A stretch of 35,464 bases of DNA from Sneathiellales bacterium (GTDB taxonomy: Bacteria > Pseudomonadota > Alphaproteobacteria > JANQFL01): assembly GCA_028277845.1 (NCBI GenBank), contig JANQFL010000039.1, forward strand, positions 1 through 35,464. Reading direction: 5' to 3'. The position numbers and the translations under genes are program-made. How positions within the stretch are numbered: the first letter of the stretch is position 1; each line of letters starts with the position of its first letter. A model generated the notes under the pieces. The model was given only the letters and a program-made list of their open reading frames with translations, searched no databases and was not told the DNA's origin. Shown here one piece after another: positions 31,667-35,464 of this stretch.

Positions 31667-32776
31667 ATGTCCACGTCCGCCGCCAAGTCGAAGCCGCCGT
31701 TCCGGGCCGAGCATGTGGGCAGCCTGTTGCGGCCGCCGGAGTTGCGCCGGGCGTTCCGCGATTTCAACGACGGCCGCCTCAACGCCGAGGGGTTCCGCGA
31801 GGTGCAGGACGCCGCGATCCGCGACGTGGTGGCGCTGCAGGAGGATATCGGGCTGCTGGCCGTGACCGACGGGGAATTCCGCCGCGCCTCCTACTGGTCC
31901 CATTTCGTCGAGGCGACGGACGGGCTGGAGGTCGCCCAGGCGGTGTTCGATTTCCACAACGAAGACACCAGCACCCACTTCCTGGCGCCCAGGCCGGTCG
32001 GGCCGTTGAAACGGTCGCGGCCGATCTCGGGCGGCGAGTACGATTTCCTGTCGTCGGCGACCAGCGTGACGCCCAAGATCACCCTGCCGTCGCCGCCGAC
32101 CATGCAGTTCTGGGCGGCGCCGGACAGCCTGGCCGAGGCCGGCTACGACCTGGATGGGTTCATCGACGACCTGGCCGCCGTCTACCGCGCCGAAATCGCC
32201 GACCTGTATGGCCGCGGCGCGCGCTACATCCAACTGGACGACGTGCCGTTCGCCATGCTGTGCGACGACGCCATCCGCAAGGACCTGGGCGGCCGCGGCG
32301 ACGATCCCGACCTGCTGGTCGACAAGTATGTCGGCCTGTTCAACAAGTGCCTCGACGGCCGGCCCGACGACCTGACCGTCGGCATGCATCTGTGCCGCGG
32401 CAATTTCAAGGGCCAGTGGCTGTCGGAAGGCAGCTACCGCTATGTCTCCGAGAAGCTGTTCAACGACATCGGCGTCGACGCCTTCTTCCTGGAGTACGAC
32501 ACGCCCCGGGCCGGCGACTTCGCGCCGCTTAAGGCGGTGCCGGCGCACAAATCGGTGGTGCTCGGGCTGGTCAGTTCGAAAGTCCCCGAACTGGAAGACG
32601 CCGACGCCCTGCGCCGCCGCATCGACGAGGCGGCGCAATTCATCGACCTCGACCGGCTGGCCGTCAGCCCGCAATGCGGGTTCGCCAGCGCCGTGTCGGG
32701 CAACCCGGTGACCCTGGACGACGAAATCGCCAAGCTCAAATTGGTGGTCGAGGTCGCCGCGCAAGTCTGGGGCTAG
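31667..32776 (+). CDS. MetE C-terminal-like (cobalamin-independent) methyltransferase
   Basis: 369 residues, ATG at 31667. Stand-alone version of the MetE catalytic barrel (YxjG/YxjH type): FRAEHVGSLLRPPELRRAF, LAVTDGEFRRASYWSHF, YIQLDDVPFAML, VGMHLCRGNFKGQWLSEGSY. Zinc ligands expected at His241 and Cys243 (HLCRGN), Glu276 (LEYDTPRAGDF) and Cys337 (SPQCGFAS). It would transfer a methyl group to a thiol such as homocysteine from a folate or other methylated donor. Lacks the MetE N-terminal half, as is normal for this class. Confidence 0.87.
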   Translation: MSTSAAKSKPPFRAEHVGSLLRPPELRRAFRDFNDGRLNAEGFREVQDAAIRDVVALQEDIGLLAVTDGEFRRASYWSHFVEATDGLEVAQAVFDFHNEDTSTHFLAPRPVGPLKRSRPISGGEYDFLSSATSVTPKITLPSPPTMQFWAAPDSLAEAGYDLDGFIDDLAAVYRAEIADLYGRGARYIQLDDVPFAMLCDDAIRKDLGGRGDDPDLLVDKYVGLFNKCLDGRPDDLTVGMHLCRGNFKGQWLSEGSYRYVSEKLFNDIGVDAFFLEYDTPRAGDFAPLKAVPAHKSVVLGLVSSKVPELEDADALRRRIDEAAQFIDLDRLAVSPQCGFASAVSGNPVTLDDEIAKLKLVVEVAAQVWG

Positions 32777-32949
32777 AGCAATTCCGCATCGCGGGATTTC
32801 CGCCGATTTTCAAACCTAATGTAGAGCTATTATAAACATACGCCCTTAGGGCGAGTGTGTTGGGTGGTTTTCCATCTAATACCAAAGGATGGGCGCAACT
32901 ATGGCCGCGCCGGCTGACGACAGCCGGTTCAACCATAGGAGACCCATCC
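32777..32949. other. Intergenic region with two hairpins and a short repeat element
   Basis: Begins with CTAGAGCAATTCC (32774-32786), related to the repeats at 33660 and 35388. CGCCCTTAGGGCG (32841-32853) is a perfect palindrome. CCGGCT/AGCCGG (32910-32927) forms a hairpin just upstream of the ATAGGAG ribosome binding site of the next gene. Confidence 0.5.
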
Positions 32950-33663
32950 ATGTCCAAGAAAATACCTCTATTGTTGATTCCCGGTCTGGCTTCCAACCGC
33001 CTGATGTGGCAGCCGCAGATCGAAGGCCTGGCCGACATCGCCGATTGCTGGGTCACGCCCTTGCCGGCGGCCGATGATTTGGGCCTCATCGCCCAGGAGA
33101 TTCTCGCCGGCGCGCCGTCCCGGTTCGCGGCGGCGGGGCATTCCATGGGCGGCTATCTGTGTTTCGAAATTTACCGCAGGGCCCCCGAACGGGTCCAAGG
33201 CCTGTGTCTGTTGAGCACCACGGCGGAACCTGAGTCCTCGGGTGCCGCCGAACGGCGGCGGGCCTCCATCGACGATATCGCGCGCGATGGGTTCATGCCG
33301 ACGATCCGGCAAATCATCCCCCGCTTTGTCCGGCCTGACGAACGCCGTGGCGGCCCCGTGTTCGACGCCATGCTGCATCAGGCCTACGAAACCGGCCGGG
33401 ACGCGTTCTGCCGTCATCAGATCGCGTCGTTGGCCCGCGCCGGATACAGGCGGTCGCTGGACGGCATAGGCTGTCCCGTACTGGTCGTCGGTGGCCGGCA
33501 CGACGTGGTGACCCGGACGTCGGGCCAGGCCAGGATGGCCAGGGCGATCCCCCGGGCCGATTTTCATGTGGTCGAGCACGCCGCCCATATGATCACCATG
33601 GAAAACGCGGATCAGACGAACGCGATCATGCGTGACTGGCTGCAGTCGGAGTTGTTGGCCTAG
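32950..33663 (+). CDS. Alpha/beta hydrolase
   Basis: ATG at 32950 after ATAGGAG; an upstream in-frame start at 32857 is less likely. 237 residues. LLLIPGLASNRLMWQPQIEG gives the oxyanion region, AAGHSMGGYL the nucleophile elbow (Ser65), LVVGGRHDVVT the acid and VEHAAHMITMEN the His. Cytosolic, substrate unknown; the family includes MhpC-like and esterase enzymes. Its stop TAG is the start of a 23-bp repeat. Confidence 0.87.
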   Translation: MSKKIPLLLIPGLASNRLMWQPQIEGLADIADCWVTPLPAADDLGLIAQEILAGAPSRFAAAGHSMGGYLCFEIYRRAPERVQGLCLLSTTAEPESSGAAERRRASIDDIARDGFMPTIRQIIPRFVRPDERRGGPVFDAMLHQAYETGRDAFCRHQIASLARAGYRRSLDGIGCPVLVVGGRHDVVTRTSGQARMARAIPRADFHVVEHAAHMITMENADQTNAIMRDWLQSELLA

Positions 33664-33682
33664 AGCAGTTCCTCTTTAGATG
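33660..33682. repeat. 23-bp direct repeat, left copy
   Basis: Identical 23 bp beginning CTAGAGCAGTTCCTC and ending TTTAGATG occur here and at 35388-35410, same orientation, flanking the IS5-N/PAS gene. Both are followed within a few bases by CATTCTG. Confidence 0.8.
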
Positions 33683-33766
33683 TAAACATTCTGACGGAGC
33701 GTATTGGCGGATACCCCGCCCCGGTCCGGTGCGCCCGTGTCGGGCCGCCGGGCCGTCCGGCGGCGG

Positions 33767-35335
33767 TCAGTTGACGGCCAGGGGCTTGATCAGCGTGACG
33801 CCCAGCAGCATCGCGATGCGCCCTTGGTCGTCCGCCACCGGTGCATGCACGGTCCACATCTGGCAGCGCCGGCCACCGGAATTGATGTAATACGTGCTGG
33901 TGCCGGCGGGACCGACCCGGTTCGCGGCGCGGGAGAAGACGGCCAGCAGGTCGTGCTGCAGGCCGGGGTGGCCATATTTTATGGTGTTGTGTTTGGCCTT
34001 GGCACTGACGACGGCCCCGGTTGCGTCGCCTTCGTTCGCGGTCTTGATATGCTGGCCGATATATTCGTAGCGGAACTGGTTGTCCGGCAGGACACGGGTG
34101 ACGGTAAGATACGGGCCCAGTTCGAACAGGCTGGTGAGCTTGATGTCCGATAGTTGCGGCGACTGGCGCTCCCCGCGCAACCCGTTCCAGTAATCAAGAA
34201 ACCCCTGCTCGATCTTGACCCAGTCCGACGGACCCAGGGCCCGGTGGCTCACGTCGCTGCCGAAAATCCGTTTCGGTGTCTGACGCACCTTGTCGAAGGT
34301 ATACGGGGTGCGCGCGCCGGCCAGAAGCGGTTCGGACATGGGCATGAACAGCACCACGCCGGTCAGCAATTGCACCGGAGAGTCCACCGTGTTGGCCGGG
34401 GCGAACACCGACCAGAACTGGCAGTACTTACCGGCGTCGTCGAGGATGTATCCGCTGGTCCGAATGGCCCGCCGTTCGCTCAAGGCCAGGTGACACGCCT
34501 TGAGCAGATTGCTGTGAATGCCGGCATGGCCGTAGGTTTCCAGATTGGCGTCGGCTTTTTCGCGCAATGTCGTCTTGACCGGCGCCACGTGTTCGCCGTC
34601 CGCGATGGAATCGCCGGCCCACTCGAGGACGAAATCGTCCGCCGTGATCCGATGGCCGTCCGTGGCCGCGTCCCGTTGTCCGGTGGACGCTGCCTTGCGC
34701 ACGTTGAGGGCGCGAAAGACGACGCAATGGGTGCGAACGGAATCGGGAATGTCCGCCAATGCGGCCGACGCAAATCCCTTCTCGCCGAACAGGGCCGGTT
34801 GATCCGACCAGAACCGCAGATACGACTGCTCGAGGGCGGCCCAGGCCGGTGGTTCGAACATTTCGACGTCGGACGCGAGCACATAGGGCGAGGGTTGCCC
34901 GCTTCTGGACGACGCATCCGATTGGCTGGTGGGCTCGTTCAGCAAGGCCGACGCCTCGAATTGCCGGCGCAGTTCGCCGAACACGTCGGTGGCGATGTCC
35001 CGTTCGATCAGCAGGCGCCGAAACGTCGCGATGGCCAGGTGGTCCGGTGCCGCCGTGCCGGCCGGGACGCCGATGAACTTGCGGAAGGCCATGCTGTCAC
35101 TGACGAGATAATCGAAGTCCGCGGCAATCAGCCCGTGCCAGTGCTGCAGCAGCATGGCCTTGAACAACACCAGCGGGGAGTGATCCCCGGTGTTCTGCGA
35201 ATCCGGCTTTATCCAGCGCAGATACTTGTCGAAGGCCTGCCAGTCGACGCTGCGGTCGATCAGTGCCAGCCGGTCCTGCCAGTTGGCGGTGTGCCCGGCT
35301 TGCGGCGCAGCTTTGTCTTGTTCGGTCGAAGGCAT
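33767..35335 (-). CDS. Fusion of IS5-type transposase N-terminal domain with PAS_5-like sensor domains
   Basis: ATG at 35335 (MPSTEQDKAAPQAGH); the frame stays open to 35443 but that part reads into the repeat. 522 residues. Residues ~28-135 match the DUF772/InsH N-terminal domain of IS5 transposases: DWQAFDKYLRWIKPD, PLVLFKAMLLQHWHGLIAAD, SMAFRKFIGVPAGTAAPDHL, ATFRRLLIERDIA. The DDE catalytic domain is absent. Instead there are two PAS-like domains with similar order: YLRFWSDQ..., ETYGHAGIHSNLLKACHLAL and LLTGVVLFMP; then FLDYWNGLRGERQSPQLSDI, FRYEYIGQHIKTANEGD, KYGHPGLQHDLLAVFSRAAN, MLLGVTLIKP. This looks like a domesticated DNA-binding part fused to a ligand sensor. Confidence 0.78.
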   Translation of the reverse strand: MPSTEQDKAAPQAGHTANWQDRLALIDRSVDWQAFDKYLRWIKPDSQNTGDHSPLVLFKAMLLQHWHGLIAADFDYLVSDSMAFRKFIGVPAGTAAPDHLAIATFRRLLIERDIATDVFGELRRQFEASALLNEPTSQSDASSRSGQPSPYVLASDVEMFEPPAWAALEQSYLRFWSDQPALFGEKGFASAALADIPDSVRTHCVVFRALNVRKAASTGQRDAATDGHRITADDFVLEWAGDSIADGEHVAPVKTTLREKADANLETYGHAGIHSNLLKACHLALSERRAIRTSGYILDDAGKYCQFWSVFAPANTVDSPVQLLTGVVLFMPMSEPLLAGARTPYTFDKVRQTPKRIFGSDVSHRALGPSDWVKIEQGFLDYWNGLRGERQSPQLSDIKLTSLFELGPYLTVTRVLPDNQFRYEYIGQHIKTANEGDATGAVVSAKAKHNTIKYGHPGLQHDLLAVFSRAANRVGPAGTSTYYINSGGRRCQMWTVHAPVADDQGRIAMLLGVTLIKPLAVN

Positions 35336-35387
35336 CGCGGCGGTCTTCGTACGTCGGTTCGATTGAGGGGTTAGAATACACGATATG

Positions 35388-35410
35388 CTAGAGCAGTTCC
35401 TCTTTAGATG
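35388..35410. repeat. 23-bp direct repeat, right copy
   Basis: Second copy of the repeat at 33660, upstream of the IS5-N/PAS gene start. The following bases GAATCCATTCTG extend the similarity. Confidence 0.8.
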
Positions 35411-35464
35411 GAATCCATTCTGTTTCTCGAGCGGCCTGCCCATCCACCAGGAAGACGGGGCCGC

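Follow-up and report, generated by a model that had tools for sequence, protein, structure and literature searches.

The window analysed here comprises 35,464 nucleotides, the entire contig JANQFL010000039.1 (C101) of a Sneathiellales genome (assembly GCA_028277845.1). Near its right end it carries a gene whose product combines DUF772, the N-terminal domain of IS5-type transposases, with two PAS sensor domains behind it; no DDE catalytic domain is detectable. We found that this fusion is evidently a conserved family whose DUF772 domains group as one clade and that, to judge from substitution rates, the gene is under purifying selection. The fusion and a convergent hydrolase gene form a conserved pair. 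We consider it probable, from sequence comparison, that the fusion is a one-component regulator in which a domesticated IS5 domain contacts DNA and the PAS domains sense a ligand, and that it is tied to the pathway of the hydrolase. The two identical repeats that flank the gene are ends of an unrelated element resembling a miniature inverted-repeat transposable element (MITE).

A transposase domain joined to PAS sensors

The open reading frame (ORF) runs on the minus strand from an ATG at 35335 to a stop codon at 33767-33769 and encodes 522 amino acids; this start codon is the chosen one, and the frame is open up to the contig end. In the N-terminal half, residues from about 22 to 142 are homologous to IS5 transposases. 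Pfam recognises DUF772 (PF05598) with an E value of 3e-8 (34 bits, cut-off 23.1), and the NCBIfam model NF033581 ("IS5 family transposase") matches at E 1.5e-13, confined to residues 26-142. In hhalign the domain aligned with four IS5-type transposases, each carrying DUF772 and DDE_Tnp_1 by Pfam, along 115 columns (probability 99.6, E 4.7e-24). Neither Pfam nor NCBIfam found a DDE domain in the protein.

Pfam gave no match to PAS_5 or to any other PAS domain in the window protein at E<=1, and the sensor half was read from profile and fold comparisons. As references we used three PAS_5-like proteins from the source genome, one of them a Pfam PAS_5 match (E 2.1e-15) and the other two chosen by similarity: PAS2 matched with a probability of 98.6 and E 1.4e-15 (hhalign), and PAS1 with a probability of 93.3 and E 2.7e-7 (profile-profile comparison). 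The two domains match each other at E 1.2e-44. In fold comparison, PAS1 matched the solved PAS domain 3fc7 (Z 9.5, 2.3 Å over 93 residues) and PAS2, taken as residues 399-522, matched the solved PAS domain 3kx0 (Z 8.7, 3.5 Å over 109 residues). The AlphaFold2 model of the protein, built from two sequences, is poor overall (mean pLDDT, the per-residue confidence, 55.6), with values of 72-90 over residues 371-520 and of 37-73 over PAS1. A sequence search for relatives in the PDB gave two weak matches alone (E 0.069 and 0.97). Domain models, profile-profile alignment and fold comparison thus bear out the original prediction, made from the letters of this stretch, of an IS5-type N-terminal domain followed by two PAS_5-like domains and no DDE domain.

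The same fusion occurs elsewhere. We found it at eight loci in six genomes, in Alphaproteobacteria: three paralogues in the source genome and one member each in genomes G385, G286, G193, G014 and G396. The paralogue on contig C77 has DUF772 and two PAS domains, that on C35 DUF772 and one PAS domain. A scan of named genomes gave the member in G385 (NZDS01000007.1, Rhodospirillaceae bacterium ARS1032), which matches residues 11-522 of the window protein with 35% identity in the best segment. In a sample of the class, 49 of 385 genomes gave some match and four held both halves in one frame (G000, G286, G193 and G014), G000 being the source genome in this and in the phylum sample; in the latter the only match at E<=1e-20 among 398 genomes was G000 itself. 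For most of the genomes listed from these two samples the best three first-look candidates were scored, and members may be missed. Directed searches found the fusion in three of the seven genomes of the family of G193, adding G385, in 3/15 of its order, and in two of the 17 genomes of the order of G014 (G014 and G396), where two further matches are IS5 transposases.

By Pfam, DUF772 is present in seven of the eight members and PAS_5 in five (E<=1, best 4e-6), and DDE models match none of the eight at E<=1. As a control, all nine IS5-type frames tested carried both DUF772 and DDE_Tnp_1, as did the source genome's own IS5. A tree of 30 DUF772 rows separated the eight fusion rows from 22 IS5-type rows with a support of 100/100. 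Left out of this tree were two cut copies of the window gene (L027 and L028), a broken fragment (L080), a long branch (L075) and the own IS5 (L041), in which the domain model finds nothing. Nine of the 22 comparison rows were checked with Pfam (DDE_Tnp_1 in 9/9), three being tested as the same gene in another locus. Against a model built partly from these rows, 18 of the 22 reach a DDE half in the same frame and three have it in a second frame; none was seen in L088.

The ratio of nonsynonymous to synonymous rates (dN/dS, Nei-Gojobori) between the congeneric G286 and G193 is 0.087 in the N-terminal domain and 0.147 in the linker plus PAS1, and 0.075 in the neighbouring hydrolase; in PAS2 the proportion of nonsynonymous differences (pN) is 0.109 and synonymous sites are saturated. 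The values are rough because synonymous sites are near saturation throughout, yet each part lies far below one.

Features of the right end of the window (PAS, sensor domain; MITE, miniature inverted-repeat transposable element)
Feature	Position	Strand	Basis
Fusion gene (DUF772-PAS-PAS, 522 aa, DDE domain not detected)	33767..35335	-	ORF list and domain searches
DUF772 core (IS5 transposase N-terminal domain), residues 53-121	34973..35179	-	Pfam, hhalign
PAS domain 1, residues 202-332	34340..34732	-	Fold comparison and profile match
PAS domain 2, residues 364-522, N-terminal helix included	33770..34246	-	AlphaFold2, fold comparison, hhalign
Truncated 50-bp MITE-like end (23-mer 33660-33682); its TAG is the hydrolase stop codon	33660..33709	+	49/50 bases identical to the L048 element
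Opposite MITE-like end, pointing away from the fusion, cut by the contig end	35388..35464	+	Aligns with gaps to the reverse complement of the L048 element
Alpha/beta-hydrolase gene, convergent with the fusion	32950..33663	+	Pfam, blastp

A conserved gene pair and its possible role

We found a homologue of the window's hydrolase (41-59% identity to it) convergent beyond the 3' end of the fusion in six of the seven assessable loci, namely the window, C35, G385, G286, G193 and G014, with a stop-to-stop distance of 21-263 bases as read from the coordinates. The neighbour of the C77 gene is not assessable because the contig ends about 100 bases after it. The best NCBIfam relatives of the hydrolase are 3-oxoadipate enol-lactonases, far below the cut-off (94 against 390 bits), and the protein is best described as distantly lactonase-like. 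In C35, G385 and G014, a gene for a helix-turn-helix (HTH)-like protein and the hydrolase gene are divergently oriented, and a homologue of the former adjoins the fusion in G396; the protein scores above the Pfam HTH cut-off in C35 and G014 and below it in G385 and G396.

The original prediction had suggested that the gene could be a domesticated transcription factor. Domestication is supported by the eight loci, the DUF772 clade, the purifying selection and the conserved neighbour; for the transcription-factor part, we infer DNA binding by the N-terminal domain from its transposase origin. In such a regulator, the PAS domains would bind a small molecule or report the redox state, and sensing would change the dimerisation and the DNA grip of the transposase-derived domain. 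The convergent hydrolase would be the genetic partner, either making or removing the ligand or acting in the regulated pathway. Ligand sensing, the existence of target genes and the link between hydrolase and ligand are likewise conjectural.

Several observations weigh against such a regulator. Pfam found no recognised HTH in the N-terminal half of the fusion, and the predicted model of this half alone is all-helical and poor (mean pLDDT 48.1); we make no fold claim for the domain because the model is too poor for a fold search. In a wider DUF772 tree of 32 rows, with L075 and the own IS5 added, the eight fusion rows did not form one side of a branch (16% of bootstrap trees): L075, whose DUF772 part is followed by no DDE match, was placed within their group. 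No hydrolase was found at G396 by blastp. The HTH-like gene, where divergent, occupies the classical position of a regulator in three loci. In the 300 bp that precede the hydrolase and fusion genes, one 10-mer is common to three loci, two of them congeneric, and no 11- or 12-mers are shared. Finally, regulators usually lie divergent from their targets or in one operon with them, not convergent. The convergent order, the HTH-like gene and the lack of a shared upstream word argue against a simple local control of the hydrolase, and the targets may lie elsewhere.

The chief rival, which we regard as unlikely, is that the N-terminal domain has lost DNA binding and now mediates dimerisation or protein docking, the fusion being a PAS signalling scaffold comparable to MopJ. 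MopJ, a PAS_5 protein that lacks an effector domain, acts on signalling proteins of the cell cycle (PMC4432633). The PAS halves of the fusion are most like PAS_5 and MopJ, and the lack of an HTH call in the N-terminal half by Pfam would fit a scaffold. However, this half is IS5-like along all 115 aligned columns and constrained, as if an old function, presumably contact with DNA, had been kept.

Returning to the regulator, a broader version of it is conceivable, which we hold to be doubtful: the hydrolase, the HTH-like protein and the DUF772-PAS protein might form an undescribed signalling circuit, in which the lactonase-like hydrolase would set the level of a lactone or ester sensed by the PAS domains and the IS5 domain would control many genes, perhaps at former ends of insertion sequences. 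If true, this would be a bacterial class of sensor-regulators built from a transposase.

The same three genes might instead be a selfish or mobile module, for example a unit of defence or addiction, that spreads as a cassette; this seems improbable to us. In its favour, one genome holds three diverged copies and the spread is patchy, but no PADLOC family matched the fusions of the window and of C77 or the hydrolase of the window at E<=0.01. Among 72,556 plasmid records 21 matched the fusion, none over 80% of the query, and the 20 listed cover at most 40%; a phage collection of 50,697 records gave no match to PAS2, while integrases and shared ends were not searched for. The HTH-like protein of C35 has a weak capH match in PADLOC (29 bits).

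We rejected a recent accidental fusion, and a decaying IS5 remnant without function is also very improbable: the fusion is rare in the class sample, but its recurrence as eight members in several genomes, the DUF772 clade, the purifying selection and the conserved neighbour all speak against such an origin.

Flanking repeats as ends of a MITE-like element

The fusion lies, as the original prediction had it and as the coordinates confirm, between two identical copies of the 23-mer CTAGAGCAGTTCCTCTTTAGATG in the same orientation, at 33660-33682 and 35388-35410; no such pair arose in 100 shuffles of the window. The left copy begins at the CTAG stop of the hydrolase gene, and the right copy stands 52 bp ahead of the start codon chosen for the fusion and 54 bp from the contig end. 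The prediction had offered two readings of the pair, a common dispersed repeat or the scars of the gene's insertion, and a count in the genome favours the former. Allowing up to three mismatches, the 23-mer has 120 matches in the 5.39-Mb genome (54 + 66), against none for a reversed control, and at least 35 exact copies are among the matches listed.

Seven stretches contain two facing 23-mers. Six of them read as complete elements of 201-321 bp; in the seventh one end was missed by the search pattern. All six complete elements have TA at both ends, as a TA duplication would leave. ISY100, which is related to IS630, is reported to make a TA duplication (PMC2170065). The 23-mer is thus the terminal inverted repeat of a MITE-like element of 0.2-0.32 kb: short, present in high copy number, with matched inverted ends, and too small for a transposase gene. 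The fold of one such element, a long stem carrying internal hairpins, scores z -15.8 relative to 200 shuffles, and a search with a whole element gave at least 89 matching pieces, with 40 of 164 candidates scored. The left copy beside the fusion matches one element end over its first 50 bases with a single mismatch, and the similarity stops there.

Of the 35 exact copies listed, 30 were examined; in 28 of these the element side faces a contig end no more than 252 bases away. The assembly therefore breaks in the MITE-like repeat, and the window itself ends in one. The paralogue on C77 behaves alike (locus L054, 2873-2979): like that of the window hydrolase, its stop codon is the TAG of a MITE end, here TTAG, and the contig breaks there.

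The repeat's own TAG ends the longest frame running into it in 13 of 18 loci (binomial p 0.0009 against one third), counting frames of at least 100 codons at 30 loci, with this cut set after the table had been inspected and with the window's left copy among the 13. The leading C of the repeat belongs to the search pattern, and the listed variants begin with C or T, rarely with A. IS630 reportedly prefers the TA in CTAG, to go by the title of a 1991 paper cited in PMC2170065. A CTAG preference, or harmless insertion at gene ends, would explain the repeat copy on the hydrolase stop codon.

In its matched ends, its TA on both sides and its length, the element resembles MITEs of the Tc1/mariner-IS630 type. 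No IS630 transposase that could be its partner (DDE_3, PF13358) was found in the source genome at E<=0.001, in an assembly that breaks at the MITE repeats. The source genome's own IS5 (C60:264-1798) is ruled out as the source, its 21-bp inverted ends differing from the MITE ends. No exact MITE end was found in viral contigs.

The stretches of C35, G385, G286, G193, G014 and G396 carry the fusion, five of them as the gene pair and G396 as the fusion alone, and the MITE end is absent from all six at up to three mismatches. Because these related loci hold the fusion without repeats, it did not come with them, and the scar reading of the original prediction fails. That the repeat's own mobile element carried the fusion in, as a composite transposon or an insertion, is scarcely credible and is refuted by these loci: two identical 23-mers closely flank the gene, but they are direct, derive from opposite element ends and have about 120 copies. 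The repeat is abundant and unrelated to the gene, as the prediction had allowed for, whereas absence of the fusion from all other genomes, which it had named alongside as the mark of a recent accident, does not hold. Flanking repeats should not be read as insertion scars without caution: here they are MITE debris, which often lies on stop codons.

Other repeats and ends were seen nearby. In locus L053 (C60, 264-1798), a MITE copy ends in a CTAG at which the IS5, with its perfect inverted ends of 21 bp, has inserted; the two element types therefore share a CTAG target. The gene preceding the hydrolase in the window (31667-32776, Meth_synt_2, Pfam E 6e-20) ends in CTAGAGCAATTCC (32773-32785), which agrees with one form of the MITE end in 13 bases and not beyond them; it is probably a second, related family of stop-codon repeats. 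The right MITE end lies upstream of the fusion start (35336-35464) and may supply or disturb the promoter of the fusion; a promoter scan of this interval listed no site. An Rfam scan of the window gave nothing at gathering scores.

Comparison with known systems

With IS5-family transposases (NF033581; PF05598 and PF01609) the fusion has in common a homologous N-terminal domain of about 115 residues. Unlike them, it has no detectable DDE nuclease and continues into PAS domains, and the fusions are diverged paralogues beside a conserved neighbour gene, not identical copies. No terminal inverted repeats of the fusion's own were found in the window, where its right side is visible for 129 bases only.

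Both sensor domains resemble PAS_5 (PF07310) and MopJ (NF051868) in fold and in profile. MopJ is a single-domain protein, whereas the fusions carry one or two PAS copies behind a transposase domain. The window, C77 and C35 proteins stay below the model cut-offs: 18.7 (C77) and 15.9 (C35) against 22 bits for PAS_5, and 13.1-24.4 against 200 bits for MopJ. With the PAS one-component regulators PpsR and VqmA, the second of which appeared in the fold-comparison list and the first in another match list, the fusion shares a sensor PAS joined to a putative DNA-binding part. PpsR and VqmA have their HTH at the C-terminus; the putative DNA-binding part of the fusion is at the N-terminus and derived from a transposase.

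That transposase domains can be taken over as host proteins is well documented for eukaryotes; bacteria offer fewer worked examples. Our literature search found no paper that joins DUF772 with a PAS domain, and the papers on DUF772, seen as titles and the beginnings of abstracts, include none on such a fusion. Among the titles listed, none was relevant to transposase-derived bacterial transcription factors; those on domesticated transposases were mostly eukaryotic, with one on REPINs. By title, none of the literature on alphaproteobacterial MITEs at stop codons concerns the present element. The parts are thus known, and the combination of DUF772 and PAS with a partner gene was not found in the literature searched. 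With one transposase-domain clade, defined sensors, paralogues and a partner gene, this small family makes the question of whether an IS5 N-terminal domain could become a ligand-controlled regulator directly testable.

Two further loci concern the relatives of the N-terminal domain. In locus L075 (1363-3330, genome G126), a frame of 656 residues (863 in the search row) opens with a divergent DUF772-like part that no DDE match follows; Pfam finds nothing in the frame, which is possibly a second re-use of DUF772. In locus L106 (1-2639, genome G326), by visual inspection of the translations, an IS5 transposase gene adjoins apparent clustered regularly interspaced short palindromic repeats (CRISPR) and a Cas1-like frame.

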